Assembly (NCBI GenBank): GCA_033182465.1 | Contig: CP137322.1 | Location: 2,294,001 to 2,358,000, forward strand | Reading direction: 5' to 3' | Length of the DNA: 64,000 nt | Origin: Sanghuangporus weigelae | Lineage: Eukaryota; Basidiomycota; Agaricomycetes; Hymenochaetales; Hymenochaetaceae | Part shown: positions 5,196-55,914 of the stretch, piece by piece | Layout: each line of letters opens with the position of its first letter | How positions within the stretch are numbered: position 1 is the stretch's first letter | Made by a program: the position numbers and the translations under genes | Notes under the pieces: model-generated | What the model was told of the DNA's origin: nothing | The model's database searches: none | Seen by the model: the letters and a program-made list of their open reading frames with translations, nothing else

Positions 5196-6588
5196 TTACA
5201 ACAGCCGAAATGATCTAAGAATCTCATCGTCCGCGGGCTCACGGCGATGCGCCAACTGGCCTGCTCGCAGGTGTTCGAGAGGCACAAGCGAACGAGGGTC
5301 ACAAGAACCTGATGGAAGAACCGGAGTTGCGGGTGTAAGGAGCAGAGGGCTCGGACCCGCATTGTCAGAAGCCGCTGGCGATGGAAGAGAAGACAAATGT
5401 GAGGACGTTGCGGAAGGTGCAGGCGACGGTGAAGCGAAATGTGTTTTGTTCCGATGATGATCTTCGTAAGCAGGTCTTTGGCTAGCTGCGACCAGTACAG
5501 GTCGAGGTTGACGTTGACCGTCCGATACGGGTGCACATTCTGAGAGTATGGGTGTACGCGTCCGAACACATAGTTGTGATGACGATGCTATGGCGGAGAC
5601 AGGGCTTGGCGGAAAGGGAGAGTAGCGTGCTTGAACGATGAACGGCGAAAAACCCTGTGAGAGCGACTGATCCCGGTCGGATTGAGAACTCTGTGAAGCT
5701 GCTGAAATCGAGTTTCTCCGCGGAGCAAAGGACATGGACACATCGGTCGGTAATGCCTCTCGCGGTCCTCGCTCGGCTTTCTTGTTTGAGCCGACGGTAC
5801 TTGAACGCGCGCGCTGGTAACATTCATGTGGAACATGCAAATTCGCGAGAATAGGGACATCATCCACGATACGAAGATGTTCGAGAGTGTCTTCCGTGTA
5901 ATAAGCATCTGGATTGACGAAAAGAACAGAGCAAATGAGCTTTCGACAACATTATGTCAAAAAGAATGGAGGTTGAGGGACGGACGTACTCATGTGCCAT
6001 TTCTTGAGACTTGTTCCAGTGTTAACCCAAGCCGAATAGGTCTGTTTCACAAGAGGTTGCCGCTTCACGGGCTGTGTAGTATAGGAGTTGGATGAGTAAG
6101 ACTCGCGATTGTGTCTATAAGCTCTTAGTTTGGGATACGGGAATAGTAATTGAGAACCACAAAGATAAGACCTACCTGAGCATTCGGTTCCTTTCAGAGG
6201 TGTGAGTTTCATTCGTATCCCAGTCCTTCTCGATATATAGCAAGAAGTCCTAGGAACGGGAAGGAGAACGGAGAGCGGACAATGTCTGAGAGTTAGTTTC
6301 GAAAGACAGAAACGGAGCCGACGTTGAACTCACGTCACGAACGCGCGAAGGGTGCCAATGTCGTCCCTCCGTGAAGCGCTCCATGCCTGCACCGGTAGCG
6401 TCGGAAGCTGGCGAACGTTCTTCCCAAACGTATACGCAACCTGGTCGAAGAGTGGCACGATCTGCAGCATCAAGACGACGAGTAACCATGGGAAGTATGC
6501 CACAGGTAACAGCATGAAACAGTACATTGGCATCGCGCGTTGAGCGGACGCGCATGCCAGTCGCCGTCGGCCGCTGAGTGGGCCGCAT
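5196..6588 (-). CDS. WOPR-domain transcription regulator, paralogue A
   Basis: A Gti1/Pac2 (WOPR) family DNA-binding protein, the class that includes Wor1, Ryp1, Mit1, Pac2 and Ustilago Ros1, which act as nuclear master regulators of cell state or development. The start is the ATG at 6588, opening MRPTQRPTATGMRVRSTRDA. WOPRa is visible as VRSTRDANVLFHAV, GILPMVTRRLD, VYVWEERSP, ERFTEG and HPSRVRD. An intron follows RVRD, then DFLLYIEKDW, another intron, and WOPRb (VKQTYSAWV, KKWHMNAYYTEDT, LRIVDDVP). The rest is a Ser/Pro/Ala-rich, probably disordered tail ending in DDEILRSFRLL. Relative to paralogue C the domain has changed residues: GAGMERF for GLGIERF and RHWHPSR for RRWGPSR. It points away from the other two copies, and nearly 6 kb of gene-free DNA lies upstream. 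The family call is firm. Its targets cannot be read from sequence. Confidence 0.88.
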
Positions 6589-9500
6589 CTGGGAGCTCTT
6601 TGTGGGAGACGTCGTGAGAGAGAAGATGAGCAATGGACCAGGTATGAGACAGCAACGGTCAAGTAGACACACAAGAGGCCTTTCAGTGAGCGAGTGGGAG
6701 ACCAAGCAATGCGGCAGGAGAGAGACAAAAGAGGAGAAATTGCAGATTAGTCTCGGCGGCGGATGTAGGTCTTTATAGCGATCAAAAAATAAGCGAAAAG
6801 AGATTAGGGCCGAGGAGTGAAATCACAAGTAGATTAGCGATCTGAGGAGCCCTTGTATTCTCAGGATCAAAGATGCGAGCATTGCCATTTGCCAGTGCCA
6901 GAGAGTTGCGTGTTTGCGTGCGCGATCTATGTATATGCGTCGCGCGTCGAGTGGATGTCGCTGTTGAGCGATCGCATAAGATACAAGGTTCATGGCAGTT
7001 GAAAGGCCGCCTGAACGGTATCCTAAAGCTTCTAAGCTTACCGTACCCCGGGCTCAGGCTCATCCTGGCTCATCCTGGGTCCTGGTCTGGTCTTCACTTC
7101 CTCTCTTCTTTTCTCAGCCGCCTTCTGTTGGAACCCAGCATGTGCTGCAAATGTTCTGTTCATCTAGATGAGCAACAATCACAATCACCTAATCTTCGCG
7201 GTATCCTTTTTCGCTCTCTATTCTTTGCTGGCCCGTCTCGCTAGCGTTACGCATTGGCTTCCGCTGCACCTTCGGTGATCTGATCCGGTACAGTGGCCTG
7301 TCTACCTTGTCTTTGAAAATCCAAATGGCATCGCTGTTGCCACTTACCACTGGTGATGGTGGTCGTTGCGTTGGATTGATCTTGGTTATGAACCAAAAAG
7401 GTACGACGCGTGCCCCTTGCCACCCCAATCGACCAGACCATCAATTTTCAAACTCTGATCGTCACTATCATCATGCACCGCTCTGCCTACTCAAAAGTCT
7501 CCAGCCCCTGCTCTTTTCGGCGTACCTTCCTAAGCCGATCAAAATTTTATACCATGTTCATCCTCCCACGCGCGTGGCCGAAATTCTCAGAAAGAGAATC
7601 CTGGCCACGCGTTGCACTATGTCGACCACAATGCCACTGCGGCAGAGTTCAATAGATGCATCTGCCGGAAAGAACCTGTTCATTTTCACCGGGTCGACGA
7701 ATATGGGGCATCAGGTGTCATTGATGCATCAGCCAGCATCCCAGCAAGAACAGTCTTTCTCCACGTTGAGACAGGTGGAATAGACCCAAGTACAACGTCG
7801 CTCGAGAAACACGATCGCGAGCGCTAGTTCCATGGCACTACATCACTCTTTTGTGAAAGTGAGACTCAACCTCTCGGCCGCGGATACTTCCGTTTTCATA
7901 ATCGTGCTTCTGACAGAGAACGAGCAGCCACCTCGTATCCCGGGCGGTCTAGTACTTAGCCATCAGCGCGCTCTAAAGTTCGAACTAATAAGAACAAGGT
8001 CTTGCTGGCAAGTGCGGTGGATCCGATGGTTTCGCTTGTGGTCGCATCTTGTTCGACCTGTTTCCTATGACGAGGCATCCAATGCATCGACATTTCAAGA
8101 CTAGCCTCGACTTGAGCTTGACAGCGAGAATAAGGAGCACCTAAATCGACAATCCGCCTAAGATGTCCCTGCCATGGACGAATTTGCATGACGATGCTTC
8201 GCGGAGCTTCCAGCACTTCGGACCCAGTCGCGTCCTCAACTTGGGTCCGTACCCCAATTCTCGATGAAAAAAGCTACAGAAGCTACGAGCAGCCCGCAAA
8301 GATAATACAGAAGCTGCATTCCCGGACGTTGTTGACTATGGATAGCAATTCACGTAAGTGCGCATATTCGCCGCGCATGCACCTGGTCCTGAATTGTAGT
8401 TGACTTCTCTATGTATGCGTCAAGGCTAAGGAATTCACGAGTTCTGCCTTGCCTCATTTGTTCCTGTGCTTGAATATTCTTCGCCGCAACTTTGAAGATG
8501 GATCAGCCGGGAAATCCTACCTCTTCTTGTCTAGGATGGGAATTGAAATCGTGTACCACATCTTGGATCTCTTCCCCGACTTCCGGCGAAGTCCAATCTG
8601 AGCCCCTTCCTCCTATTTGTGGCGTTCATTTCGTATTTTCACCTAACGCAACTCCGAGGACGACGGTTCTGTTGAGCGTTGGAACAAGGGTCAAACTATC
8701 TCGATCCTAGAAAACCCTGGTCATCGTGATCGAGAACTGTCGGCCGTACAGTTCGTATTGGCAGCATGTCTTCCGTCTTTGTCTCCTGCTTGGCCCCAGA
8801 AATCGCTAGCATTTATGACAGTCCATTGCAGTTGTCTTCGCTTCGGAAGCAACCGACCTATCACCGGTTCCCTGCCCGAGGAGTTGGCCTTAATAAAGGG
8901 GCTCAACGGTACCCAATTAGCCTTTTGCTCGGACGTTTCAGCGTGCCCTTGGAGCCATGGCGCAATACCATAGTCAGGTACTATTGAGATCAGGTCTTAC
9001 GCGTGTCTTATGCGGCAAGTGCTAGGCTCAGTCATCGAACCATGAGCCACTCATTTGTCTTCATTCCAGAAGTGAGTAGCTGTTGCTAATTATTCTCGAT
9101 ATGATTTGATAAGAAGATACTACAAGGTGTTAATAGCGTGAAGCCCAAGCATCACTTTAGTGCTTGGTGAATGGAAGCCACGTCGTGCTATTAAGTATAG
9201 CGGTTCCAAGCCCTCCGGCGTTAAGTTTGTAATTCAATCATCATGGACCATTTATTTGATGCGGCGACCTGGCTACCAGAACATTTCAAGCAAGTGCCTT
9301 CTCACTGGAAGACACTCATACAATCCGGAACGTCCCGCTGTACCGACTTCCGCATACGAAGTAACGGAGAAACAAATACGCGATTCGCAATTGTTCAATT
9401 ACAACAAGAGCGCCCGATGAATTATCGCTAGCTTGCATAGAGACTATTCTCGGCGAGTTGTTTTGCCTGAGCTACTGCGTTATTCAAGTACCTTGGACAG

Positions 9501-12493
9501 GGGCGAGCGGAACCAAATTAGGCTACTGAAAGGAAAATCATCAATGAACAACAGCAAGCAAGACCAAGTCGTTGACCAAGTGGATCAAGATCACCGTTAC
9601 TAGGCACGTGCGTTCGAGGTGGTCAAAGCGAAACCTTAATTCATTGTCCGACTGACCGGCCACGACTCTTTCAGCGACGGCGGTGTTATTTTGCACAATT
9701 CTACGCTTATCAGGACACCGTCTGTTGTGAACTCGAAAGGAAAAGAGGAATAATGGAAGACGACTCTATATGAAAAAGTTTTTTTCAAATCGTCTTCTTC
9801 GTTCGCGGTGCACGTCAAGCGATTGGCGCGAATCACTGCAATGTTGTTGCCTTGCTTGATTCCTCCAGTGAACGCGGGAAGAACCGACCGTCTTAATTTA
9901 AGGATATCCAGTGTGCGTGGGACGATCGTCAAACTGTGGTTTACAGTGTACATGCAGGCGCTGTTACACGTTCAGGCGGCAAGGGTGCAGTGAAGTCTCT
10001 CATCATCATTGTCTCATTGTTCAGATGTTATTGCCATGGATATCCCAGAGCGGGCATGTCAGATCGGTGGGCTTGAAGGGGCCATTAGTCGGTGCTTTCG
10101 CAGGCGTGCGTCTTATCGAATTTGGGGTTGCGCAGCTTCCGCCGCCCGAGGATCTAAGAGAATAACCTGTTGATTTCTTCATAGGAGCAGACTAGGTACG
10201 AATCGTTTCTTATGGCAAGCGTTGGCGATACGAACTTCCTTCGAGCAAGCAAGATCCTCAGTCGTCTCGGCCGCGCGGCGTCCGACCAAAAACAAACAAA
10301 CAAACAAATATGAGGAAAATCGGCCATGCAATGCAACTTAACTGTATTAATGGACGCGGAAAGTGTGACTCCGACGGAGTTGGGCCTTAGAACCGGCTTC
10401 AACAGCGTAACATCTAAAGCACCGAGCGAGAGCTTCCTTTTGAAAAGGAGCCGACTTCAACTTCCCCCGCTGACTTCCTACTTATCTTTGCAGGGATCCT
10501 CATTCTCCAACGGCGTACTCGTCTTTAGCAACGTGTACGTAGGCGCAGCGTGTGGGGCTTTGGGCTTCTCCAGTTCACTCTGCGCCTCAGCGCCGATATA
10601 TTGCTGTGAGACTTTGACCAGACCTCTCCGCCTAACGTTACTTGAACGTCTTCTAGAGCTCAAGCTCCTCGTCTTCCTGTTGGTCTGCACCAGGACGTGA
10701 GAGTCTTATCCTTCATCCTCAGGATATCGTGCGGAGAAGACCCGTGGGAGTAAGAACATCGCAAGAGCTTCGGGCAAGCAAGTGCTCTCATCGATTCAAG
10801 TTCTACCTTCTGTGCCAGAGCTTGTTCGAACAGTGAATTGATAGAGAATGTACCGTGGAAGTGCGTTCTAGTGAACTGAAATTAGACCTGGTTCTGATTT
10901 TTGACCTGACCGCGTCTTTTCAGCGCCTCAATTTCTCAATGCATAAAAAATTGCCGTCGGCGAAACCAATTCCGCTTCAGGACCAGGCTAGCATTAGATG
11001 AATTGCTCAGGACTGTTAGAAATAAAAGTCAAGTATATAGACTAACCAAAGACTCCCCTTTTTATTTAATAGATTCGCCCTGCACCTCTCAATTCTATAT
11101 TCAGCTAATCATTTCTGAGTTCTTTGCAGCCGAAGCTTACAAAATCGCAGCTAAATTTGCCTTGCTATCGTGACAAGGGCCCTCGTGGTCTCTGTCCCAC
11201 GGCCTCTCCTGACTGAGAGTTACTACTTCGGAATCCGGTCTCCATCTTTATGTGTGCCCATGCTTCTTCGCGTTCTGAAAGCATCCAGAGTACATTCCCT
11301 ATGCCTCGGCACCTCTGTGCTTTCAGGGATCTGTCTTTTTTTCATCTTTGGAGATCAGTAATGTGCGATACAGTCGTCGGCAGCGTGGATCCGGGATCTT
11401 TTGGGTCATCCTCTTTCGGGAATGAACGGACGATCGAATTCCTATGGACAGTATACGAGAATAGCTTAGTTGGAAGGCTAAATGGTAACTCTTTTCTCCT
11501 GGAGCTTATACGGCAGATCTTCGATAACTTTATTTCCCAAAGGTGTAGGAAAGACAGTCCATTGGCTGAAGGCCACCCGGTAGCCGCTCTGGGGCACGTT
11601 ATTCTTACACTAGGGCAAAATTTTCATGATTCGCTTCTCCGTTCTGGCAATTCTACGCGCATGGGAAACGCGATCGCTGATCCGGGTACACGTCGTCCAA
11701 AAACGCCTTCGCTTTGCATTTCTTGAGCCAATAATGAATACGAGAAATCGTGAGAAGACTTATCGATCACTCACAGGGACAACTTAGGAGAGGCGGTCGC
11801 TTTAAGATGGGCGGAAGATCCGGGTAATCTAGAACTCGGAAATGCAGGGAAGGACGCGATCTAGCCTAAGCTTATGAGCGAGGGAAACGAAGATGCTCGG
11901 AGCTTTCTGTAGGAAGGTTAGTGCATAAGGTTCTCTCAAGCTCAGATGCGCTACGCACCTCAAGTAGGAGTATTAATAGAACGTCAACCTTCACTCGTGG
12001 GTCTGCCTGTCAAAGTAGCACCTTCCTTAATTCCACAAAGAGCGCACAAAACCAAGCCTTGCAGTTCTCGTGGTAGTCTGGGAGGGTTTGGTTGAGATAA
12101 GCGTGTTCCTTGAGTGCTGGCGTCATAGCAGGCGAGAAGAAAATAGCTTGTCTGGAATAGCGCAAGGCGGAATGAGATATGCTTCACATATAGCATCTGG
12201 ATGAATGATAGGAAAATCTACATAGCGCAAAACAGAGTTCCAGCATGAAGTGAAAGAGTGACGGATTGAGCGACAACGGTGAACCTTTTTTGCCTAACTT
12301 GTCAAGAGCAAGACCTTGAAGGCTCGTTAGGCTCTCACGTCAATATCAGAGGAAGCCGCATTGGCGCAGAACATCTTCCCCGCGCGCTTCGTTAGTACGG
12401 AAGGTTGTTTCGCAATCTTCACCATCTGTATGGGTGGTGCAAGACAGGGGTCACCTGTATTGATGTACATGCTACGACCCCGACATATGGCGT
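6589..12493. other. Long gene-free stretch upstream of WOPR-A
   Basis: About 5.9 kb between the WOPR-A start and the 3' end of the glycolipid transfer protein gene. I see no family-like protein sequence and no exon chain. There is a short near-tandem of GGCTCATCCT around 7057-7082 and an (ACAA)n run near 10291-10307. Long upstream regions are known for some WOPR regulators (Candida albicans WOR1), so this may be an extended control region, but that is an inference. Confidence 0.5.
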
Positions 12494-13387
12494 TTACAAG
12501 CCCTTCTTATATTTGTTGTCCTCCAAAAACGTGTCGATTCTCGTTGCGATTTGCTCCAGAGCAGCTAGCCACTTGTTTAACTTTTCGTCTAGTTGTTCCT
12601 GAGTGGCAGGCGGTCCTCCATCCTTGTCTTCCTTCAATTTGACATACATTTCTTCTCTCGCGGGACACACACTCATTGCCACCTGCATTTTTAGTTGTCA
12701 GTTTGAATCTCCGTTCGTTCGCGCAGTACTCACGGCAAAAACACCCCTTACTATGAAGTTATGGAATGGCCTGAGAGTGGCGGTATACGATTGCTGGAAA
12801 GCTTCCGAAAGCTTCAGATTCGGGTTTCCTTGTGTGCGTTTGAGAGCACCACTTGTGAAAAGCAATCCTCGGATGAGCCAGACTAAGCCCTGGGTCGCTG
12901 TATGACTTCCCTCGCTCATTTCGTTTCTAACGAGTTCTTCCACAGTGACAGACTTCGTCTGAGCTGCCAGGTAGCGCTTTCTTATTTTCTGAGAAGATGA
13001 TTAGCAGATGAACTTGAAAAGCATGCATGTGAATGGTTACTGTTGGTCCATGACGGGACCATGAACTGAAAGATACGAAATAGAGTTAGCTCACTTCGAT
13101 GTTTCCATTCATGTCATCTATCACCGGTTTGAAGGTTATTGGATTCAGAAGCTCTAAAAAATGGTTCCCCAGGAGTGTAAGCTGGGCGGCACTCTTAGAC
13201 GAGTATCTCCATACCAAGGATTCTAACGACGCCCGTGGCAGCCTCCAGAAACTGGGGCGTGTTGACACCAGCATCAGATTGCTCGACATCTGCGAATGAC
13301 TGGAAGTAGTTTAACAAGCGGTCCAAGCGCCATGTCAATATCACTCACTCTCACGGCTGGTTGAGCGAAATCGATGAAGGGGGCCAT
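12494..13387 (-). CDS. Glycolipid transfer protein (GLTP fold)
   Basis: A cytosolic protein predicted to carry a single sphingolipid with a sugar headgroup between membranes, related to human GLTP and fungal HET-C2. The ATG at 13387 gives MAPFIDFAQPA, then an intron, then SFADVEQSDAGVNTPQFLEA. A further intron ending in TTTTTTAG at 13154 joins to ILELLNPITFKPVIDD, restoring the family spacing. Headgroup residues known in GLTP appear in order: Asp and Asn in DDMNGNI, Lys in KIRKRY, Trp in LVWLIRGL and His in PFHNFIVR. Trp at that site argues for glycolipid and against ceramide-1-phosphate specificity. The C-terminus (YVKLKEDKDG, LNKWLAALEQI) matches the last family helices. The start lies 127 bases from the divergent methionine sulfoxide reductase gene. 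Confidence 0.9.
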
Positions 13388-13514
13388 GATGAGTGCTTTG
13401 TGCAAGACGTGATTGACGACCACGACGGGAGCACGCGACCGTCGATCATCATCATCATTGATTATTATTTTTATGGCCAACAGTCTCCTTTGAAGCTTAC
13501 AACGAACTATAGCC
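13388..13514. promoter_or_regulatory. Compact bidirectional promoter
   Basis: Only 127 bases separate the start codons of the glycolipid transfer protein (minus) and the free-methionine-sulfoxide reductase (plus). Both promoters must lie here or overlap the 5' exons. A TCATCATCATCATTG run at 13444-13459 is the only visible pattern. Co-regulation is plausible but unproven. Confidence 0.6.
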
Positions 13515-14238
13515 ATGCCTCACGCCGATTCCTCCTTCGTCCCTTCGACCATCACTACGAAGGCTCAATTCTGGGCCCATGTTCTCGAGCAGCTTGAAGG
13601 TTTGTTGTCGGGACAAAGAACCTGGGTAACGGATTACATAACAGATCCAGTGACCACGAAGAAATTATTAACATGGGTTTATCAAGGTATCAAATTGTGC
13701 CAATACAGCCTCTCTAGTACATCATTCACTTCTTGCATTTCCGTCTCATTTCGGATCCGGGGAAGGAGCTATCAACTGGTGTGGTGAGAAAAATTGATCG
13801 TCTGTAATTTCGTTAATTTAATTATTATCTCTGTGACGATTAGGATTTTATATTGATTCTTCGTTATTTCCGCGGGCTTCTCTTTCGCAAAGCAGGATCA
13901 TTGATCGGACTGAAGGCGAGAACAAGCTGTTTCTGGGACCATTCAGTGGGAAACCAGCTTGTCAATTTATTGATACGTCGCCTAGCAAGGCGCGTGGAGT
14001 ATGTGCGGACGCATTCATGCAGAAGAAGACCATTCTAGTCCCTGAAGTTGACTTGTATCCCGGGCATATCGCTTGCGATGCAGAGACCAAGAGTGAGATC
14101 GTCTGCCCTCTCTTACTAGAAGGGCGCAGCATTGGTGTATTAGATTTGGACTGTCTTGTGGTTAACGGATTCGACGAGGATGATAGGGTAGCACTGGAGA
14201 GAATAGCAAGCCTGGTCGTGAAGTCATGCGATTGGTGA
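13515..14238 (+). CDS. Free methionine-(R)-sulfoxide reductase, GAF domain
   Basis: Reduces free methionine-R-sulfoxide to methionine in the cytosol, as yeast YKL069W does. The ATG at 13515 opens MPHADSSFVPSTITTKAQFW. The family signature follows across two introns: SLLAFPSHFGSGEGAINWCG, then GFYIDSSLF, then KLFLGPFSGKPACQFI, GVCADAF, VPEVDLYPGHIACDAETKSE and IGVLDLDCLVVNGFDEDD. The three cysteines of the catalytic and resolving set are present (ACQF, GVCA, HIAC). The second and third are 24 residues apart, as in characterised members. The first and second are 14 apart where I expect 10, so the loop is slightly longer. The length is close to the usual 170-190 residues. Confidence 0.9.
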
Positions 14239-14340
14239 CTCGTTAGATTCCACTCCGTGCAAGTACAGTACTAGTAGTACTATTAGTTTCGTGCTGAAAG
14301 CAGAAACAGATTAGATTAAGACAAAACAAAATATACTTGC

Positions 14341-15004
14341 TATACAGGCATTTACCGGTCCTTTGAACACCCAATACAGATCCACTCGTACACAACACCA
14401 CAAACATTTAAAAAAAAATCTAATTACATATCTGAGTAGTCTGCTATGGAGGCTATATGCTGAAATTTTTTTGAGCTGTAAAATGTGCAGGAAAAATCAA
14501 ATTGTGCGTGTGAAAAAAGTAGGGTAAATGTCACGAAATTAACTCCTTTGAACACCTTGTGACATAAGTGTCATGCTGGTGCGAGATGAGAACCGCCCGA
14601 TTACATAATAATGTTGATAAGTCTGCCTGTCACGCTTTTCAAGTCACCTTTATTGTATGCCTTATATTAATTCATTGGACAGCTCTTTCGCCACACAAAC
14701 TAGGCTGCATGTACTTACAGTAGTGGAGTACTAGCATATCTGCTTTTGAGTCATGCTCAAAGCATGAATGAATAGCAAAATGCATCTGATTCATTGTTTC
14801 TCATTGAGTTTCACTGAAATTCAGCAGTAAATAATTTCTCTGTATTTAACGGGTCATAGTAATTTGCTGAAATTTCGCAGCATGACTAATGTGTATTCTG
14901 TCCACCTATGATGAAAATTTCAAGTTGCAAATTGGAGGTTTGAGTGAGTAAATGTAGGGTGTTCAAAGGAAGGGTACTTTAAAGGACCAGTAAATGCCTG
15001 TATA
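14341..15004. mobile_element. MITE-like element with 24-base terminal inverted repeats
   Basis: The left end reads TATACAGGCATTTACC followed by GGTCCTTT. The reverse complement of the right end is the same 24 bases with one mismatch (C to T at base 16). Just inside, CCTTTGAACACCC occurs at 14360-14372 and inverted at 14957-14969, and a copy of CCTTTGAACACC lies at 14545-14556. The body is AT-rich and has no open frame of note, so the element is non-autonomous. The flanks fit a TA (or TATA) target duplication, as in Tc1/mariner-type or PIF-type elements. It lies between two genes, and its right end is 111 bases from the first in-frame ATG of cysteinyl-tRNA synthetase. Confidence 0.8.
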
Positions 15005-15199
15005 CGGTATTATATAATATTGTCGGAATAATTTCTGTGATCTATCGATCGACGATCACTTCCATTTTCGAATTTGTGAGTCACGACTTCTCGCCAGCAC
15101 GTCTTCCAGTCGTGGATGCTCGCTCTCCCTTGCTCTCGACTAAACTGGCGCACCTGCACATATTGGAAACGATTTCCATTGCTGACAAGAGCTCAGAGC

Positions 15200-18100
15200 A
15201 TGTCTTCTCAGCCGACTTGGATTCAGCCTGTGAAAGTATCCGACGAACCAACCTTAAGGGTCTTCAATTCGTTAACCAAAACAAAGGTCGTCAATTTATT
15301 TCGTTCTCAAAACGACGTGGCACTGAGACGGAAGCGTTAGACTGGATTTACTCCAAGAGAAGGGCGACTAATTAAATGGTATAATTGCGGTCCGACGGTT
15401 TACGACGCATCTCATATGGGGCACGCTCGGTGAGGGACCGGTGCCCTTCGCGCGCTCAGTTCAGCTAATTTCGCTCTCGATAGAAACTACGTAACACAAG
15501 ACATCATCAGGCGCATTCTTACTGACTATTTCGGTTATGATGTTCATTTTGTGATGAACATTACTGACATAGACGACAAGGTATGTGGATGTGTTCACGA
15601 TCATATCCGGACGTCTGCTCAAAGGGACCGTAGATCATTAGAAGATCTCGAGAAACTCACCTCTTGGAAAAGTTTCGGGCCGGTTCGAATCTACTCACGA
15701 ACGAGCTCATATCAGAGATTGAAGATGCCTGGAAGGTCTACCTACATTCCCAGCTCGCAAAGGCAATGGACGACGCAGAATTTCCGAGCGATACGGGCGA
15801 AGCAGAACTATGGGAGGACATCCTGGTGAAGTCGCAGAATGAGGGATGGAAGTCCGAACGAACAAAGAGGGATGAGAAATTTGACATGCATCTGAAGGCT
15901 CTGGTAAGCAGGAGAACGCCGTAAACTCTGCAGCATGCCGTTAATCGAGGTAATCGATCAAAGGACAAAACCAATAGGGCCTTAACCGAGGCAAAAGTTC
16001 TCGTCGCGAAGGGACACAGCTCATCCGACAGTGCTTCACGTCTCATCGATGCGTCTCAAGATATTCTTGCTAAGGCACTCGATAAAAAGGTTCGCCGGTC
16101 CGTCGGACTCTACCCGTTATGAAATAGTGTGAACTAACGAAGCCTGAAAGTATGGCGACGAGCTTACGGATCCTGCGCTTTCACGGTCGCTCGCACAGCA
16201 TTGGGAAGCTGAGTTTTTCAAGGATATGGGGCGTTTGCGCGTGCGACCGCCTGACACCCTTACTCGCGTGACCGAGTACGTCCCGGAGATCGTTACATTT
16301 ATCGAGCGAATCATCGAAAATGGTTTTGCGTATGAGAGCGAAGGCAGTGTATATTTCGACACGGGTGCATTTGAGCACGCTGATGGGCATACATATCCAA
16401 AGCTTCAGCCCGGCAGTAAGGGTAATAGGGAGCTTCTCGAGGAAGGAGAAGGTGTAGAGCTTATCTGGATGTTACAAAACCTTTAAATGGTGTGCTGATG
16501 CTAAGACTAGGTGCATTGGCGCCGAAGGCGGTGGGCCAGCGGTCAAAGAGTGATTTCGCCTTGTGGAAGAAGTCGAAGCCTGGTGAACCATCCTGGCCTT
16601 CTGCATGGGGCGCGGGTCGTCCTGGGTGGCACATAGAGTGCTCAGTGATGGCGGGCGCTGTTTTCGGAGACAATATGGATATTCACTCTGGAGGCATTGA
16701 CTTAGCGTTTCCTCATCACGACAATGAATTAGCCCAATCTGAAGTGAGCTGATGACCACTCATTAGCGTCCTCATGTTACTGACTTTAGCCGTAACCGTT
16801 TATTTTCCTTCCGAACTTTCATATATCACCGTAACTAACTGTTTGACGCCATCAAACTTTGCAATGCGTTGTTTTTCCGCAAGGCGTACCACCAATGCAG
16901 TCAGTGGGTGAACTATTTCTTACACACGGGACATCTTCACATAGAAGGCCTGAAAATGAGCAAGTCGCTCAAGAATTTCATCACCGTTGACGTGAGCGAA
17001 TTCAAATCCTTGTTCGGTTCTATCCTCGCCTTCCTGACAGCACGACGATGCACTTTTGACGATAATCTCATTCTATCCGCGCAGGAAATACTCCAGAAGT
17101 ACTCTGCGCGGCAATTGCGGCTTGCGTTCCTAACACAGCTTTGGAATTCAAAAATCGATTTTACCGATAGCCTCATGACGGGAGAAGTGCGCACCATAGA
17201 AACAACCCTTAATGTATGTGCTTCTTCTCTTCAGCGACCCAATCCAACGGCGAACTCATGCAATTCCTCCATTGTCTACATAATGTCGACTTCTCGGTTT
17301 CCTTTTTGGCTTCACATCATTCATTATCCATGCTGGTCGTTAATTTCGGCACAAAAAAAAAAAAAACCGCGTACATCCCGCTCGCTCCGTGGACCGATCT
17401 GTAGAATTTCTTCGCTACTATCAAAGCCATTGTCTTGGCGCCGACGGGGAGTTCAAGTGACGGCCATCATAAATATGGTGCTCTAGAACGCGATATACAG
17501 AATTCGTAAGTACTTCCCAGGACTACGCATGCGGACATCTTTACAGATTGTGCCACGTATTACCTTAATTCCTTTCTCCGATCCTGACGCAAGGGCTTTT
17601 CTTTTAGCTTCCGGGAGGCCCAGCGTGCATTCCGGGCCGCGTTGTGCGATTCCTTCAATACGCCGCTGGCACTTGAAACATTATTGAAACTTGTCTCTCG
17701 GACAAATGTATATATCAATTCACAGGGAAGAAATTTGGATATCGATGTGGTAGAACAAATTGCGCGATGGGTCGGAAGGATGTTGCGTGTCTTCGGCCTC
17801 GGTGAAGGTCCCATTGTGAGTTCGGATGCCGAGATTGGTTGGGGAGAAGAGCGGAAAAGCTCTGTAGTGAACGTAAGTCGCTCATCTTTGAAGCACTTAT
17901 TAGGTTATACTGCTCCACGCAGTATTAATTTACTGCTCTCGGCGGATTACAATATTGAAGACTTACTAAATTTATCCCAGAGAGATGAAATGGTTATGCC
18001 CTACTTGCGGGCTCTATCGTCATTCCGAGATAGGGTTAGGCGACTTGCGATCGCAGGTGGAGATGGCGCGCTCAAGGACATCCTTGCTCTTTGCGACCAT

Positions 18101-18590
18101 CTGAGAGACGTAGATCTTGTCCCTTTGGGCGTTGCTCTTGATGACCAAGACGGTGCGTCCGTGGCCAGGCGAACTAGTATCTGGCATTTGACTGATTCAA
18201 ACTCGTTCCTCGGAACGTTATACGAACCACCTTCTAGACGGCAATGCTCTTGTGAAATTAGTCGATCCTGCGCAGCTACAGAGAGCACGCGACGAGAAAC
18301 GGACGCTAGCGGAAGCGAAGGCTGCTAAGAAAGCCGCAGCGGCTGACGCAGAGACGCAGAGACGCTTCGCCAGTCTTGAGAAGGGACGCATACCACCCGA
18401 TCAACTTTTCAGACCTCCAAACGTACCTGAAGACTTGTACGGAAGCTACGATGATCAGGGTATCCCCTTAACTGACGGCGAAGGGAAATCGTTGAGTAAG
18501 AACGCTATGAAGAATATCCGGAAAAAGTACGATGCCCAGGTGAAGGCACACCGGGAGTTTCTGGGATGGCAAGCAAACGAAGTTAGTTAA
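15200..18590 (+). CDS. CRS1: Cysteinyl-tRNA synthetase
   Basis: Charges tRNA-Cys with cysteine; class I synthetase. The chosen ATG at 15200 opens [20 protein letters not shown], with an in-frame ATG further up at 15116. Spliced exons give the zinc-site cysteine and HIGH box ([17 protein letters not shown]), [36 protein letters not shown] and KMSKSLKNF. The anticodon-binding half follows ([17 protein letters not shown]), then the Lys/Ala-rich eukaryotic tail with LRSLY-type replaced by [20 protein letters not shown] and [14 protein letters not shown], ending GWQANEVS. A long poly-A run sits in the intron near 17351. About ten introns are inferred. Catalytic motifs are intact, so the gene should be functional. 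The MITE lies immediately upstream. Confidence 0.93.
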
Positions 18591-20053
18591 CGGACTTGGT
18601 CCTCACGCGTTGCGTCTATCTACACTGGCCGTGCCGTTAACTCCTGGCTTTGATCAACTTGTAATTCAATTAACCTGGAGAGGTGCATTTGAATTGCCAT
18701 GCTTCTACGTTCCCTCCCGTGTGAGGCTGAGCGATGATCATCGCCATATATCAAAGGAAACTTCTTTTACTGAATACCAAGCCATTTCTTGAGCAAAACT
18801 AACAAATTACGACATCGCGGGATCCTGAGCCTTTCAATGACAAGGATAATTTTTTTCGGTCTACCCGCTCTTGAATGACAAGCCGTCTCCGGGATTGGTT
18901 CGGCAGAAGCAACTCCGCGGCAATGCATGCGGAACAACCTGTATGGTACTGGAAGGTTTTTGGAAGCAGCCTTAATCCCCGGACGCTTGTCTTGTGATCA
19001 TCAGCCCGCGTTCGAATGTGATTATATGGCTTGAAAATTTCCAAAGTGGAGACCTGAGAGGATTTGGTTTGGGGCGACATTATCGAGATTACCCACTATC
19101 TTTTTCTTTCAATACCGACAATAATAGTCGGACGGTCAGAGGCAAGCAGGGGAAAGAAGAATCGACCTTGTCAGATCCCGCAGTTTGTGAATGTACAGGA
19201 GATTTTGCGATACAAGGACTAGAGCATATCAATGCCATCTCCGTAGTTCATGAGAAAGACGTTTAACTTTGCCGTCTTGTGCCCCAAGGTAGGACAAAGA
19301 CTTGGTGAAGAAGATCCAGGAACCAGAATGAATCCCTGGGCAGTTGTCGTATTCCACGAAGCGGAATAATACTTCGTGGTGAATCTAGATTACAGGTTAT
19401 CGTTCTCATCGGCGCGTTACGGGAGGAAGCATATGCGGTCTTTGCCTTGCGGGGGTCCGTGGTTCTAAGTCCTTTTGTATCGAATAACGACTTCCTCTTT
19501 CATGTAGACGGACATTAACGTAGTCGTGTCCAAGGAAGCCAGCATAGTCAGTTCCCGGATTTGCTTATTGGCTGCCGCGAAGATCGTGGGTTATTGACAT
19601 CTAATCAAGATCTGAGGTGTGATTTCGAGTTTTGCATTTATTACGTTCCTGGAGCTAGTCATTTATGCGCGTCACACAAGAAGGCGCATCAACGGCGTCT
19701 TGCTAGTCATTGAAGACTAAATAGTACGTACATTGATCCCGAAGTTCTATTCTGCTCCTAAATCAGGCCTAGGAACTCGATGCGAAACAAATAAGGTTTC
19801 TGACCGAATCACCGATGGAGAAGAAATTTAGGATTCGGTTATGAAGAATGGGCGGATGCATCTAATCCATCTGGCTAATGCAAATTGGATAAGCCGAACA
19901 TCTTTGTCCTGCTGAGACAGAGCCATCGGTGTTTAGCAAAACCCAATCAAGCTCCCTTAGCTTAAATATGCCTGCGATGGCTGATCAGAGGATCCCAGAT
20001 CCCCCACTACTCAAGCCATGTACCGTCTCCATAACCCGTCTACCTTACCAAGA
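18591..20053. other. Gene-free stretch upstream of WOPR-B
   Basis: About 1.46 kb between the end of cysteinyl-tRNA synthetase and WOPR-B. I see no family-like reading frame. It contains a perfect 8-base inverted repeat with a 10-base loop (CCACGAAG at 19354-19361, CTTCGTGG at 19372-19379) and one TTAACTTT at 19263-19270. This should contain the promoter of WOPR-B. Confidence 0.5.
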
Positions 20054-21150
20054 ATGCAACCTCCGACCTGTACTGGAATACGGGTCCGCTCCGTCCATGA
20101 TGCTCACATCCTCTTTCATGCTGTCTATCTTGAAGTTCTTCCGATGGTGACTAGGCGCCTTGATACCGAAGAGCGCCGTGCTGTGCGATCCGGCAACGTT
20201 TATATCTGGGAAGAGCGTGGCCGCAATTCTGAGGCCACTGGCGTAAGATAATACCATTTTACTCGAGGATTACTATCTTATGCTCCTTTAGTTAGGGATT
20301 GAGCGATGGACAGACGGAATCCGATGGAGTGCATCCCGCGTCCGTGATGTACGGCTGTTTCATTGTTCTGATTCCTTAAATACCTCGACTGAATTGGGTG
20401 TCTGTTAGGAATTCCTCCTATATCACGAACGGGAGCCAAACACCGACTACGAATTCACAGACATCGAGCTGTGAGTTGTTACATTCCGCTTGGCGATCCG
20501 AAGTGCTGACCAGCGTGTAGAGGTGCGAGCTATCGTCTCGTCAAGCAAACATATTCCGTTTTCGTCGAAACGAGCCAGGGACGACGCAAGTGGCATCTGA
20601 GTACGTTTCTGATTATCCTAGAGAAAGACTTCACTCTCAAAGATGAATGCGTCTTTGCGTGACGATAGCTGCATACTTTATTCCTGCGACCGTCGGCCAA
20701 CTACGTACAATTGATGATATCCCGGCCCTTGCAAATATTCGTCCGCCCGAAGGCATGTACACCAGTGCTAAGATGGGTAAAGGTCGAGCTCGCGGTGAGT
20801 ATTACCCTTCCGATATCCACAGCGGTATCTCCGCCACCGCGAGCCCGTCAACGCCGGGAGAGCAATACCCACCACCGCCCATCTATGCCCCGTATCCAGG
20901 CCCGCAGTTGCCTTCACCGGTATCACGCGAGAGCGGTTCACCACAATCACTTCGCGCACCGAATTGGGCTGGATCTTCTCCATCTTTGCCTCCTTCATCC
21001 AGCTCTGAAAGACAAATGCTACCGAACGCAGCGCGTATTCTACCTCCTCCTTCTCTTGGACTGCACCCCGCTCCACCGGTACAAAGCCCTTATTCACCTC
21101 GCCATCCACTCGACAACGAGGCTCTACGGTCACTAGGAAGGAACTTTTAG
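20054..21150 (+). CDS. WOPR-domain transcription regulator, paralogue B
   Basis: Second WOPR (Gti1/Pac2) regulator. I chose the ATG at 20054 because MQPPTCTGIRVRS lines up with the start of paralogue C; an in-frame ATG at 20018 would add 12 residues. WOPRa shows DAHILFHAVYLEVLPMVTRR, VYIWEERGRNSEATG, an intron, LGIERWTDGIRW and SASRVRD, an intron, then EFLLYHEREP. WOPRb shows YRLVKQTYSVFV and GRRKWHL, a phase-1 intron inside a Thr codon, then AYFIPATVGQLRTIDDIP. A Pro/Ser-rich tail with many short tyrosine and proline motifs ends LDNEALRSLGRNF. The canonical RRWGPSR segment reads IRWSASR here. The introns after RVRD and in the WHLT codon are at the same places as in C. Confidence 0.9.
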
Positions 21151-24100
21151 TTTGAATTCCGGATTGACCGGCGTCTCGAAATCAGAAAGAATCCCACCTT
21201 CCAAATCGTCCGTTAAACTTGTACTTATCGCGAAGTTTCATCTCATCGTCCGTGTGTATCAAATGCTACCAGGCTATAGCTCTTTGAGAAGAAAAAAAAA
21301 ATCTTCTCTGATGGTGTTTTATGATCGTCCGAGTCCTTGAAATGGAGGATAGATCTTGAGAAAACAAAGACTTTAACCATTACTTCAATATGGTATGGAT
21401 TAAGTTCGAGCCATCATGTGATAGAGATGCATAAAGTACTCACAATCATATTCGTTACGCCAAGGAAGGTGGTGATATGGTCAAGTACCCTCATATGATG
21501 GCCGCATGTTTCGATAGTTCGTTCCTGGAACGCTAAGATCGTTTCGCCGAACGTCTAAACCGAGCCTAGTGGTCTCCGAGTGAGAATCCATCTGAATCCA
21601 TGGGCTCCTCACGGACCACACGCGTGCTGTACTAACATACACTTAATCAAGACCGCAATCGGCATCGATCACGCATCGGGAACACTAATAGGCATTTTAC
21701 CATTTCATTTCTCATCATGCCGTGGCTACCGTTACAGAGGAACACGGCCCGGTTACCGCGCCGGCGGCTGGGACGCAGGATCGGAAGTGCACCTGCACGG
21801 CACGAGGGGCGACGAGCAAGGGACCCATGCTTCGTGTATTTCTATCCAGAGTTAGTTCATCTTTCTTCGACTGATTAATATATTGTTGGTGCGATTGCTC
21901 GAGAAGCTACGTGAAGATTGAGACGTAGCTAAGTATATGTAACCATGATGATCACTTTTTACGTTGCCAGGGATGACGCTCCAGTAAATAGAGCCCGCAT
22001 CAGAGCAAAATAAACTTGCCCACCCTCTTTTGCGCTGACCCGTTAGGTAAAGCCAAAGTGCAGGAAAGAAACCCAGACAGATGACCATGCTATGTAAGTA
22101 CCTTGGCGTGTCAGGTCTAATCAATAGTGAGCGCCATCGCTATGGACTACTTTGATATATACAATCCTCAGAATTTTCAAATGGATAGTGATTCCATGAG
22201 AGATACTCCATATATCCTTGGAGAGTCGCTCCAGAGTTGCTGCCCCGGCGAGCCGCATGTGTGAGAGGCACCTTGGTGAGTGCAGTGAGGTTCTCCCGCA
22301 AGGGACGAAGGTAGCTAACGCATATTGACGAGATCTACGCTTTAAGGGGATCTCCGTCTTAGCGCCATTCGGCCTCACTTAGATCGAATTATCACATAGG
22401 GCCTGAGAAAGGTCTATGCTGGTCCATGCCGTTGCGGCTCCACCGCGTGTACATAAGTCTATTCCCATTTATTCGGCAACCTGCGATTCCTGGAGCCTTT
22501 GGGGACGAATGGATCCCGAATAGCGAGGAACGTATCGCTTGGATAAACCGGACAATGCAAACATATATCTAATACGAATTCGATATGAAATACGTATGGC
22601 GCAGGCCGCGCCTGCGCTCATGCATACATTCAAGATGACCAGTGACGCATACTGTATTTACGGGCATCATCGGTATGGAAGTACTCAGAAGCTCGGAGAT
22701 TCCCAGCACGACTGGTTGGAAGCGCCCTATATGAAATCATTCTCAAAGCATAGAATTGAAATGCAAAGTAACATAAAGGCAATCCATAACCTAATTATGA
22801 TATACCAGGCGGTTAAAGAGCATAAGAAAAGCGATTTGATAAGACGTCTTTCATCCGCTAATTATCATTTTGGCGTCCTCGAGTCTGGGCTCCCACTGAG
22901 AAGAAACTAATGCCATTGACTTTCGTTTTCGTTTAGAAAGCACCGAGAATACCACAACACGGGCTAAGTTCCTCATCGGCGGAATACTTGAGGATTAGCG
23001 TCCTCTTTGTCTCCTAAAGAAAGACCAAGCGTTTCAGGTGAAATGAACGAGGCACCGAGTCCGGCACAACGGATGAGTTGTCTAATCAACCTGCTACCGT
23101 TCACAATGAACACTCGAGCGGAGATAGCACCTTTGTGCAATGAAGTACGAAGTCAGCCAGAAATTCGCGCTCAGGGAAAATCTGAGCAATCTGTAATTGC
23201 TACGATTCTGCTATTCGCTGCTGAATGCTACCGATCTTAACATAAGATTGTCTGCGCGAAGTCGTGAAGTTGTGGGAGAGTTATCAGTAAAATTAAACGG
23301 AAGAATCTCCTTCGGTAACGTCGGCTGCAGTCATGTATGCGCGTGTTTGAAAAAGCAAGAGCTTGCCGTGAGCTTATGTGCGACGGGTGTATATCATTCC
23401 TACGATGGCCGCAAAAGCTCCAATAAACATGAACAAGACGTCAGCTAACCAACTCTTCCATTTCATGTATGGGAGAGTTTTACCATCTGAGTTGTTTGTC
23501 GGAGAAAGTGTGGTCAGTTGATATTTTCGATCCTCGGCTGAAAGCCAGAGACTTTGAGAGAAAACGGGACAAGAATTAGCCATGCACGGAGCGATAGGGA
23601 TGTGTACGATACGTGTATTAAACTGTGAGAGACATCAGAGGGATCAATCGGCATAGTCTTTCTTGATATTGACTGGGACATCCATGAGGTATGAAGAAGA
23701 TCCCCTCAACCCTGCACGTTCTAGCCACGAAAATGTATGCAACGTGAGCCGTAGAGAGAAGAGTCACAAGAAGCACATGTGTACACTTACCGGCCGCACG
23801 AGGCTCCGAGGTTCAGATAGAAAATTGGCTATTTTCTGCTCGATGCTTCGCGATGTCATGGCAAAAACAAATTGGACATCGCCACTGGGAGTCGAACAAA
23901 ATAATAACAAACTGGGATTTAATTACTGTGGTTCTCGCTGCGGATCATCCTTATATAGACAGTCTTAAGACGAAAAGCGAGTGATTTGGCTGTTCAACAT
24001 GCCTTGAATATCGGCGGAAACGACAACAGATTTGTCTGCGGAAGGCACCGTCGCCATTCTCCGAAACCACTTATGCTCTGTCCCTAAGTTGTATGCATCG

Positions 24101-26051
24101 GTGTACTGGAAAACGACGATGCGGGATAACGACAGCGTCCTCATACTCGCGCGTTCATACGTATGTCCATAGACTCGGGTCGGATGGAACCGAGGCATAA
24201 TAGAGCTGCCGGCGGGTACGTTTAGTCCGTTAAATGATAAACCTCCTATCATGAAGGTTGAGAGCAGACTGACCCCGAAATATCAGTTACAGAGAAAAGG
24301 GGATAATATACATGGTAGTAAGTCGGAGAAAATGTACATTTGTGAGTACGAGACACGTGCCGGGACAAACGGCAGCGAGATGATTCCGTTCTTTCGATCC
24401 TCTCAGATCTTGTTGCATCCGATTCATTGCGATTCATGTTAGGTCCATTGCGGTTAGTACGGGTTCAAGCTCGTCGACAACCACTTCCGGCCTTGAGCCC
24501 CGAAATATCAATAACGAATTCGGTCAGAAAAAGGACATATTTAGGTCTCTTGAGTCGAGGACCATTTTGGAATGGAGTGAATCCGACTTATTGGAAATGC
24601 ACGAGATCAAAGCTTACCTTGGGATGCAGCAAATGGTGCGCGTCTAGGCCAATCAAGCTCAGATATGATTGATTTCTGAGTCGCGGAATTAAAGTAGATG
24701 CATTTTCAGATAACATTTTGGCGAGTGATGACGAGATGGGCCTGGAGAAGAATGTATTCTCCCGAAGATCTTGACCGTACTCAGATCGGCTGGGAGCTTC
24801 TTCATGCAATGCGCAAAGTTTGCGCCCGAGTAAAAACGTCAGAGTATTTCCAAATACGCATAGCGGAAAAACAATAACTCACGGTACATGGGAAGGGAAG
24901 GGTAGGGAAGGGTTGACACTATTTCCGATCGATTCAACTGTACGTGTCGATCGAGATAAGCTTTCTAACATTCATTTGTGAGGCCGATAAGAGGAGATGA
25001 AACCTGATGAGACATAGACAGGTGCTAGATTGTATTACCCTGCGGCGCCGTAAACTTCGCGCGCGAAGGACGACAAGGCAAAAGGCGGTAGTGAACCAGA
25101 CTGTTTGCCGTAGTTCCATGATCGCAACTTCCCGAAAACCAGCACTTGATCCATTCTATATTTTTACTGCATCCCGTTCGCCAGCTGTCATCGGTATTTG
25201 AGTATACCCGTACGGATTTCCTTCCATTTGAACACTGAAGCAATTTGCGAGCCTAGACGTACAATATAATCACGCTTGGCGACACCGGCGCAACTGTTCT
25301 AACGTCTTATCTGCAGCAAGATGGAAAAGACACCAGAAAGCTCGCAGCCTGCCCAGCCGCGCGGCCTGACGGCATGTAGAAGAGAGTGAAAGGTAGCTGA
25401 GAAAATGTGCTCGTAAAGCTACGCGGGAGAAGCGCGCTATTGGGCGCTTATCCTATTCGGAACTCAACGTGCTGACAGTGCAGGTCGAGTATAGTAGCTG
25501 CCATGGAGGAGATAGGATATGGTTACCAGACTGGGCAGGCCCGCGGAGAATTCGCACATGAATTAGGAGCAAGAACGAGGAGGCGAGGCGAGTCTGATTT
25601 TCGCTGTAGAAACAAACCTAAACTGATCGGGAAGAAAAGATCTTCCACAAGCAGCAACAAAGGACGCACCAATCAAGTTGCTTTAGGTTGGCGAAATATG
25701 GCCAATTTGTTTCCTTTTGCTGGTCTGCGACAAGACACAACCCCAGAGATGGAAACTGGTATGCTTTGATGGGAGTTCAAAGTTAAGAAAAGGCGTGAGA
25801 AAGAAATTGAGGATTTAACTTTAGTCGGTGTTGAGTTTTAAGGTTAGCCGCTTGTATCCGTATCCGATCCGACATGTGCCTGCTTGAGTGATTGCCTTTC
25901 TCGGAAAATATAATTCGTAACCATTATGTAACTCCAAGACGCGCCAGTTTCCAGTCCCAGAGAGCTCTTTCTCTCCCTTCCCTCTCTCAACACCTATCTA
26001 CCACCTTCCCTGCGGTGGCAAACGCTCTTCGGCATCGCTCGCGCCTTCAAA
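21151..26051. other. Long gene-free stretch upstream of WOPR-C
   Basis: About 4.9 kb with no recognised gene. A short possible first exon with a TATA box lies on the minus strand near 23.8-23.96 kb and is listed separately. Near WOPR-C there is an inverted pair AAAGTTAA (25779-25786) and TTAACTTT (25815-25822), and a pyrimidine-rich tract at about 25960-26005 of the kind seen in fungal core promoters. A GGGAAG-type purine run occurs at about 24893-24914. Confidence 0.5.
23791..23859 (-). CDS. Possible first exon of an unrecognised gene
   Basis: On the minus strand a TATA-like CTATATAAGG (23949-23958) is followed about 90 bases later by an ATG at 23859 that opens 23 codons (MTSRSIEQKIANFLSEPRSL, then VRP), ending exactly at a strong GTAAGTG donor. 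Downstream on the same strand is an open frame with a good membrane segment (WLADVLFMFIGAFAAIVGMI, about 23397-23459). I could not join the pieces in frame with good splice sites, so this may be a decayed gene or coincidence. No family is recognised. Confidence 0.22.
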
Positions 26052-27743
26052 ATGCAACAGCCGACGTGTACAAACATCCGTATCCGTTCCACTCGTGACG
26101 CCCATATTATATTTCACGCCGTTTCGCTCAACATCTTACCCATCATTTCAAGACGCCTAGACGCCGATGAGCGCGCAGCACTTCGCTCAGGCTGCGTATA
26201 TGCCTGGGAAGAACGTGGCCCGCATACAGAAGTGACGGGCCTTGGCATAGAGCGCTTTACTGAGGGCAGGCGTTGGGGACCGTCCCGCGTTCGAGACGTG
26301 AGCCTCTTCCATCAAGTATACTTGCCAAATTTGACGACATCTCTATACTTCAGGAATTTCTCTTTTACTATGAGAAGAGTCCTCCAGGCCATCTTAGAGA
26401 TAAAGAAAACCCTCTGCTTGATGAGCGTGCTCGTAAGCATTGGGATCCCCTAGTCAAGCAGACTTACTCCGTCTGGGTGGACGGTCCCAGAGGTCGCCGA
26501 AAGTGGCATTTAAGTAAGCCTTCCGTGTTGATTTAGAAGTTGGCCCCTATACGGGATGACTTACTTTGCGGCTCCGTCACTCGTTCTTAGCCGCTTACTT
26601 CACTCAGGCGACCGTTGACCGTTTGCAAACGGTCGATGACTTGCCTCAGTTAAGAGGATTGGAGGTCCCTCCAGGAAAATATATCTCGACGCGCCAAGGA
26701 AAGCCGCGGAGACAAGATGACCATATTGCGGCCGGTCCCATCGCCAACGGAGCCGACCTGCTAACGCCTGGTATTTCCCGGCCGACAAATGTATCCGCCT
26801 CGCGCACTTATGCGCCATTCCCCTTGCCTTATCAAGTCACTCCTCCAACTATGCCTTCAATTCCCCAGCATCATCTCTATGACCCACGCCTACAATATTT
26901 TGGACAACCTCCGCATTCAGTGAATGGCTATAATCATCCTGATCAGCCTTCCAGGTCTTTGCGTGTGGACCTAGAAGCCCAAAGGCATCATTACGGTATA
27001 ACTTCATTTTTCAATCAACTTATCCCATAGTGTACTGACTTTCATGAATCATTATAGGTCCACCTGCCGACATTCCTCGCCCTGCCGAACACCCTCGGGT
27101 ACAGCCACATGGCTACTACAATGTTCCCCCTTCCTTTCAGCATCATTACCCTGCATCTCAATATTCGTACGGTCTCTCAGCAGCAAACTCTCATACCAAC
27201 TTGCAACTCCCGACCCCTACGGCGACAAGTTGCCAATCCAGCCCAGGATATTCTCCTCACGACTATACAGGTGAGCCGACTGCTTACTCCGGATCACCAC
27301 CGTTACTATATGGGTCACCGGCGGCGGCGGGCGGATCCGTGCCATTACCTTCGCAAGTCTACCATTCTCTTTTGCCGATCCCCGTCGATCGGCTAAAACG
27401 TCCACCACCTATCAATATTCCGTCGTTAACAAGGCCCGGGCTTCCGTCTCCAGAGTCCATGTCTCCGGGCGAGACGCGCCCCACCTTGTCATTGCCACCG
27501 CATTTGGCCAGTCGATTTTCGCCTCCTATGTCGGACGCAAGAGACGAGCACCCACAGGGAAACTCTGTGTCGCTCTCCCCGCCGCAATCCCCACGTAGTG
27601 CGGTTTCCTCCTCCGGTCTTCCTGGCGGGAAGCAACTCAGCCTCGCCCCGCTTCGGTCACTTGCTCGTCCGCATCCATATCGACGCGACAAGTTCGATGA
27701 CAAGGCCTTGATGGCGCTGAGTGGGCGTAGGGCTCCTGATTAA
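26052..27743 (+). CDS. WOPR-domain transcription regulator, paralogue C
   Basis: The most canonical of the three WOPR regulators here. The ATG at 26052 opens MQQPTCTNIRIRSTRDAHII. WOPRa continues FHAVSLNILPIISRRLDADE, VYAWEERGPHTEVTG, LGIERFTEGRRWGPSRVRD, an intron, then EFLFYYEKSPPGH. WOPRb is WDPLVKQTYSVWVDG and RRKWHL, a phase-1 intron in the Thr codon, then AYFTQATVDRLQTVDDLPQL. The long C-terminal part is Pro/Ser/Tyr/Gln-rich and continues through a last exon to FDDKALMALSGRRAPD; the intron near 27029-27058 is inferred. Such low-complexity tails are typical of the family and often act in activation or condensate formation. A pyrimidine-rich tract sits 45-90 bases upstream of the ATG. It is nearest the Wor1/Ryp1 pattern and so the likeliest to keep the ancestral role. 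Confidence 0.92.
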
Positions 27744-31808: not shown

Positions 31809-32047
31809 GCTGCGCTACGCCAACCTCGACAGCGACGACGATGCGGCGGGGGCGCGTTGGTGATGGGAAGAAGCGAAGACGTGGCCTTTTATACCTCATG
31901 ACTTCTCGGGTGAAGCCCGTTCACCCCAAACGGGGATAACTTGTTCCCACGCACAGACCAGGTGGCTGACATCATAATGTTGAATATCAATCAATTCCAA
32001 CTCTACCTGCTTGAACTTAAAGGACGTTGAAAATTAACTTGGATGCT
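31809..32047. promoter_or_regulatory. Divergent intergenic promoter region
   Basis: 239 bases between the start codons of the TFIIA large subunit (minus) and the cysteine-synthase-like gene (plus). It must hold promoter elements for both. No strong motif stands out. Confidence 0.5.

Positions 32048-55879: not shown

Positions 55880-55914
<35 letters not shown>

Follow-up and report, generated by a model that had tools for sequence, protein, structure and literature searches.

Three genes for WOPR-domain proteins lie within 22.5 kb of one another on contig 5 of the Sanghuangporus weigelae genome, which raises the question of how old this group is and how it came to be assembled at one locus. 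The window analyzed is the 64,000-nucleotide stretch of contig CP137322.1 from position 2,294,001 to 2,358,000, and coordinates are those of the window unless otherwise given (Table 1). The genes WOPR-A, -B and -C were spliced by hand from genomic DNA alone, and each of the three models keeps its reading frame from ATG through to the stop codon; the interval 5196-27743 runs exactly from the stop of A to the stop of C. The proteins score well above the curated Pfam cut-off of 23.6 bits for PF09729 (Gti1_Pac2), with 78.3 bits for A (E-value 9.8e-22), 93.6 bits for B (1.9e-26) and 75.2 bits for C (8.9e-21). In B, C and a fourth gene, D, the Pfam match covers the WOPRa box only, and WOPRb was recognized by alignment. 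Both boxes, separated by a variable linker, are present in A-C in an alignment of nine proteins, and 37 columns distributed over both boxes are invariant in an alignment of six domains (A, B, C, E, F and G). A sequence-only reading of the locus had proposed three WOPR paralogues within this interval, each with both boxes, and had suggested a PF09729 search as a check; on each of these points it was right.

Table 1. Features of the WOPR locus on contig 5, in window coordinates.
Feature	Position	Strand	Description
WOPR-A gene	6588..5196	-	388 aa, four exons, hand-spliced
WOPR-A exon 1	6334..6588	-	WOPRa box, RVRD at end; model, Pfam
WOPR-A exon 2	6176..6249	-	model
WOPR-A exon 3	5990..6114	-	linker and WOPRb start, WHM at end; model, alignment
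WOPR-A exon 4	5196..5908	-	remaining WOPRb, tail, stop; model, alignment
WOPR-A C-terminal motif	5208..5246	-	RREPADDEILRSF; coordinates from hand-spliced model
Upstream of WOPR-A	6589..13700	-	about 7.1 kb, right edge approximate; candidate long regulatory region
GAF-domain exon	13837-14235		between A and B; Pfam
Cysteinyl-tRNA synthetase	15434..18590	+	between A and B; stop-to-stop exon pieces, unfinished model; Pfam
Duplication source	16149..21469	+	gave rise to WOPR-D; self-comparison
WOPR-B gene	20018..21150	+	301 aa, five exons, hand-spliced
WOPR-B exon 1	20018..20242	+	part of WOPRa; ends at the intron between TG and LG, common only to B and D
WOPR-B exon 2	20292..20348	+	RVRD at end; model
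WOPR-B exon 3	20409..20470	+	model
WOPR-B exon 4	20521..20600	+	WOPRb start, WHL at end; model
WOPR-B exon 5	20669..21150	+	remaining WOPRb, tail, stop; model
WOPR-B C-terminal motif	21100..21135	+	RHPLDNEALRSL; coordinates from hand-spliced model
B-C spacer	21151..26051	+	about 4.9 kb; 21600-25900 single copy
WOPR-C gene	26052..27743	+	498 aa, four exons, hand-spliced
WOPR-C exon 1	26052..26297	+	WOPRa, RVRD at end; model, Pfam
WOPR-C exon 2	26354..26513	+	linker and WOPRb start, WHL at end; without linker intron
WOPR-C exon 3	26591..26995	+	model
WOPR-C exon 4	27058..27743	+	tail, stop; model
WOPR-C C-terminal motif	27681..27719	+	RRDKFDDKALMAL; coordinates from hand-spliced model
TOA1/TFIIA	30865-31548	-	PF03153
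WOPR-D	106262-107353 (C5:2400262-2401353)		outside the window; 286 aa, hand-spliced model

A Pfam search of the whole 33.87-Mb genome (13 contigs) placed these genes among nine WOPR matches at nine loci, a number to be read as a lower bound; a protein search with the domain of E (E-value up to 1) recovered these loci and no others, as 18 exon matches. Contig 5 carries A-D and contig 13 carries E and G, and F, H and I sit singly on contigs 3, 7 and 11, respectively. PF09729 scores are 75.2-93.6 bits for A-D, 96.7-169.3 for E-H, of which N-terminal parts were scored, and 173.8 for I. H and I are the best PF09729 matches and are 56% identical to each other; they appear to resemble the canonical two-gene WOPR set of most fungi. 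By their domain the proteins belong to a known family; what is unusual is the nine loci, four of them on one 102-kb stretch of contig 5, set against the two WOPR genes that most fungal genomes are said to carry (as given in PMC4917244). When nine genes were placed uniformly 200,000 times, three fell within 22.5 kb with a frequency of 9.5e-5, and four within 102 kb with a frequency of 1e-5. Apart from the four known genes, tblastn (E-value 0.01) found no WOPR relics in the 134 kb around the array, and viral and prokaryote collections returned 28 and 98 pattern matches, among which no WOPR relative was confirmed. E and G, both minus-strand genes, are separated by about 106 kb of contig 13 (C13:602169-708757).

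The joined WOPR boxes of the nine proteins, all from this one genome, gave ((A,C),((B,D),E)) as the best tree, with (F,G) beside this group, against H and I. Support (SH-aLRT/UFboot) was 91.7/81 for A-E, 99.9/100 for A-G and 100/100 for B-D, and weaker for A-C (77.2/66) and for E with B-D (75.6/65). Within the tree of this single genome, A, B and C do not fall into separate ancient clades. Two of nine topologies were rejected by the AU test at 0.05: one made the array a clade by itself, B/D being closest to C (0.022), and the other joined A with F and G (0.032). For ((A,C),(B,D)) as a clade of the array alone, sister to E, p-AU was 0.34; the best tree has E inside. Domain identities are 53% for A-B, 57% for A-C, 63% for B-C and 50% for A-E; E is 63% identical to B and 66% identical to C, and is thus as close to C as the array members are to each other. 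Since their domains are only 53-63% identical, and E is 66% identical to C, A, B and C are old copies. The near-identity expected of a recent tandem array is absent among them and is seen only in B-D (92%); the recent duplication that the sequence-only reading envisaged for A, B and C is not supported.

The introns lead to a similar division. A phase 0 intron directly after RVRD is found in six of the nine genes (A-F; after RMRE in F), and a phase 1 intron after WH[LM] in five (A-E only). Both had been noted in A, B and C from the letters alone, both are real, and they had been taken to indicate local duplication of one intron-bearing gene. The part of that claim concerning ancestry stands: the three genes go back to a single ancestor that carried introns, as indicated by the A-E group and by the restriction of the WH[LM] intron to it. 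Local duplication is not shown by the shared introns, because the unlinked gene E has both and the unlinked gene F has the RVRD intron, and these introns were discarded as proof of it. The intron distribution therefore backs the group A-E without singling out the array. Every gene from A to G except C has a phase 2 intron in the linker, and the homology of this intron is presumed from phase and place, as the linker aligns poorly. One private intron, between TG and LG, is common to B and D only.

A younger event is recorded about 79 kb beyond C, past the end of the window, where WOPR-D is found. In a self-comparison of 134 kb of contig 5, the segment 16149-21469 is repeated at 101237-107663 in several collinear pieces. 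The duplicated block contains the later exons of the cysteinyl-tRNA synthetase gene and all of B, and the piece containing B is 78% identical over 1652 columns (81% over its main part in a second comparison). The later part of the synthetase was copied to about 101.2-104.6 kb and has decayed there. Of seven pieces of 15434-18900 compared, the first (15434-15829) has no match, the next five, all coding, match with stops inside and frame changes, and the last, mostly past the gene, also matches; the pieces are stop-to-stop frames, in which some stops may be intronic, and one is also seen in the Pfam match.

In the same block D has remained open over 286 codons. For the B-D pair, the NG86 method gives dN/dS of 0.039/0.378 for the domain part, 0.186/0.385 for the tail and 0.095/0.381 for the whole, and YN00 gives 0.107/0.287 for the whole. 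Neutral evolution was simulated with B as the starting sequence (289 codons, substitutions only, 4000 runs at each rate). With 0.19 substitutions per site the frame stayed open in 33 of 4000 runs (0.8%), and identity over the first 155 codons averaged 67% and reached at most 82%; at 0.15 the figures were 1.7% open and a maximum identity of 85%, and at 0.10 they were 5.9% and 93%. The observed B-D identity is 92% over the WOPR boxes, a stretch that differs slightly from the 155 codons of the simulation. Because simulated frame survival and identity vary with the rate, the argument for retention of D hinges on the estimate of dS. With C, E and A as outgroups, seven domain changes since the B-D split fall on D, one on B and three are unclear, and D has changed at two positions otherwise invariant in A-G. 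D is constrained but faster-evolving than B, and because of this rate and the two changed invariant positions it may be drifting. The donor of D intron 3 (L014:2686-2735) reads GTTGGT, compared with GTGAGT in B, a weak splice site that could leave D partly mis-spliced. Together with the decayed part of the synthetase, the B/D pair lets the survival of a copied regulator be judged against an internal control.

The surroundings of the array were compared with those of the other five WOPR loci, and no flanking genes were found in common within 10 kb of them; the matches were WOPR exons, or open reading frames (ORFs) on the strand opposite them, and nothing else. Downstream of C are exons of TFIIA, an ADA2-like gene and a dual-specificity phosphatase. 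Of the two flanking genes named by the sequence-only reading, TOA1 is supported by a PF03153 match; GLTP was not confirmed, with a Pfam match in none of four ORFs tested within 108-3577. The region upstream of A is single copy (6700-13600 searched) except for about 120 bp with a copy on contig 2, and none of seven ORFs tested there has a Pfam match; nor does any of three tested in the B-C spacer. About 4.5 kb upstream of C is single copy, and about 1.2 kb lies upstream of B. The published S. weigelae assembly is given as 33.96 Mb with 9377 genes of mean length 2061 bp (PMC10803629), from which simple arithmetic yields a mean intergenic stretch of about 1.6 kb. By this measure the upstream stretches of A and C count as long and that of B does not; unannotated or RNA genes are possible in those of A and C. 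The conserved core site of WOPR proteins is reported as TTAAAGTTT (PMC4567300). The Wor1 core TTAAAGTT, an ascomycete site, occurs zero times upstream of each of A, B, C and D, and the shorter TAAAGTT is present in two copies upstream of A, against 0.5 expected, and in a single copy upstream of C, against 0.3, counts too few to judge. Because the former is absent and the latter so sparse, autoregulation through the Wor1 core has no real support.

Linkage of the array to a mating-type locus was rejected: all 14 STE3 exon matches are on contigs 7 and 10 and the four Homeobox_KN matches on contigs 1 and 9, while the array is on contig 5. Between the window and D lies an inverted pair of 4.2-kb copies that are 89% identical, at C5:2362550-2366712 and 2371058-2375221 (68550-72712 and 77058-81221 in window coordinates), with related shorter stretches at 41936-42525 within the window and at coordinate 110373-110951. 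One ORF of at least 150 aa, lying where the first copy has its edge, overlaps L010:4000-10000. G+C content is 0.50-0.575 in 48001-62000 and 0.44-0.49 in 28001-48000, and none of seven long ORFs tested in the former has a Pfam match.

These data bear on several accounts of the array. A single, fairly recent local tandem duplication giving A, B and C, with E as an outgroup or a late escape, would fit the physical clustering (p about 1e-4), the topology, left standing by the AU test, in which A-D form a clade sister to E, and the existence of D as a truly younger local copy. It is nevertheless unlikely, given the low domain identities, the presence of both introns in E and a best tree that joins E, if weakly, with B/D; moreover, the sole DNA match among A, B and C at an E-value of 1e-5 pairs the first exons of A and C. 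There is a small but real chance that the array was assembled secondarily, either by A, B and C diverging elsewhere and then coming together or with E as the source. Such an assembly would call for at least two independent landings in 22.5 kb, which is less economical than local duplication, and the 10 kb around E shares no flanking genes with the array; its attraction lies in the weakly supported branching order of A, C, B/D and E, in the inversion of A relative to B and C, and in the identified genes between the copies, a GAF-domain gene and a tRNA synthetase, which are not relatives.

Two further alternatives concern individual copies. The long branch of A (0.57, the longest among A-E) and, for D, the excess of changed conserved positions over B and the altered intron 3 donor might mark these two genes as decaying relics. 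This is quite unlikely, as both are open, A over 388 and D over 286 codons, an open D is improbable under the neutral simulation, and the part of the synthetase copied with D, by comparison, has stops in all five matching coding pieces. The similarity of D to B over about 1.6 kb could also mean that D is an error of assembly, or an allele put in the wrong place on the contig, to which we give next to no credence: DNA identity of 78-81% together with a decayed synthetase part is too divergent for an allele, and the published assembly is described as coming from a monokaryon (PMC10803629).

Features of the proteins set A-G apart from H and I. A segment [RK]KWH in WOPRb is common to A-G and lacking in H, I and the Saccharomyces cerevisiae protein YHR177W, as well as in Candida albicans Wor1, whose WOPRb match is weak (1.3 bits); A-G also carry KQ at a place occupied by KK in YHR177W, H and I. 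The R[WF]T stretch is one that we take to belong to the DNA-recognition loop; the residue directly preceding its Arg is Glu in A-E and G, in contrast to the Lys of H, I, Wor1, YHR177W and F, a difference that could change or weaken DNA binding. The last 28 residues of six of the nine proteins (A-F) contain the motif R-x(2,4)-D-x-x-[AVIL]-[ILV]-x-x-[FLM], in tails that otherwise hardly align; G has a looser form (RPLLPEDRRALSTF), and none was found in the tails of H and I. Shuffled tails match the pattern in 0.02-0.26% of cases (5000 shuffles each), rates to be read in the light of A-F being related and of the pattern having been drawn after the sequences were seen. In A, C and E, SL[VA]PLxxL directly precedes the motif. 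The motif is a possible partner-docking helix, and offers a concrete target in the hunt for a partner protein.

The explanation we consider probable is that of an old local WOPR array, from which the segment with B was later copied to give a retained gene, D, and whose copies have diverged toward a division of labor between stages or tissues. The gene models, the Pfam matches, the nine loci, the tree and identities, the introns, the B-D block with its dN/dS values and neutral simulation, the decayed synthetase, the long upstream stretches of A and C and the reported regulation of Gti1/Pac2 genes in mushroom development all point this way. Weighing against it are the absence of the Wor1 core upstream of A-D, the Glu of A-E and G before the Arg of R[WF]T and the faster change of D. 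A, B and C would have come from duplications that also gave their unlinked sister E on another contig, and their domains, tails and upstream sequences would then have drawn apart. At a later point, part of the synthetase and the whole of B would have been copied about 85 kb along the chromosome, where the synthetase part decayed and the WOPR copy was kept. By analogy with Wor1 and Ros1, the proteins most likely bind DNA through paired WOPRa and WOPRb, and the divergent tail with its short conserved ending may reach partner proteins, such that the copies would act in different stages or tissues. A bolder proposal, which we regard as a long shot, is that A-G constitute a distinct WOPR branch, marked by the KWH insertion, the docking motif and, in A-E and G, the charge reversal, and that the chromosome-5 array is still growing, with members that recognize different DNA sites and vie for a single partner protein, the successive stages of fruiting being set by the number of copies and the time of their expression.

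A developmental role for A-D is suggested by the family as a whole. WOPR regulators that have been studied are reported to control development (PMC4917244, PMC4567300). Gti1/Pac2 genes are described as developmentally regulated in six mushroom-forming species, with a rank of fourth among the genes induced in primordia of Flammulina (PMC7567395), and one member as strongly regulated in Laccaria ectomycorrhiza (PMC8708209). The genes of Flammulina, Coprinopsis and other species (fruiting-induced) and of Laccaria (ectomycorrhiza) thus share the Pfam family and the mushroom-forming host with those described here, and the relevant passages of these two sources describe no array. Nor is a WOPR array described in the literature searched, in which subscription journals were covered thinly, mainly at the level of listings. 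Wor1 and YHR177W share the WOPR domain and have solved structures; they were the only two distinct sequences among PDB chains matched by the domain of C with phmmer (E-value up to 10), at 1.4e-6 and 4.4e-7, respectively. Ros1 of Ustilago maydis is a basidiomycete WOPR regulator of sporogenesis, and ros1, like other core regulators, is said to have an unusually long promoter (PMC4917244); the upstream stretches of A and C are also long. At the level of that description, Ros1 differs in its 879-aa length and 156-aa linker, compared with 286-498 aa for A-D and a linker of about 18 aa in B. Relative to the canonical two-gene set, S. weigelae has seven further genes, A-G, that form a separate group (99.9/100); if this branch is general in mushroom-forming fungi, it would provide a natural set in which to follow the diversification of a master-regulator family.
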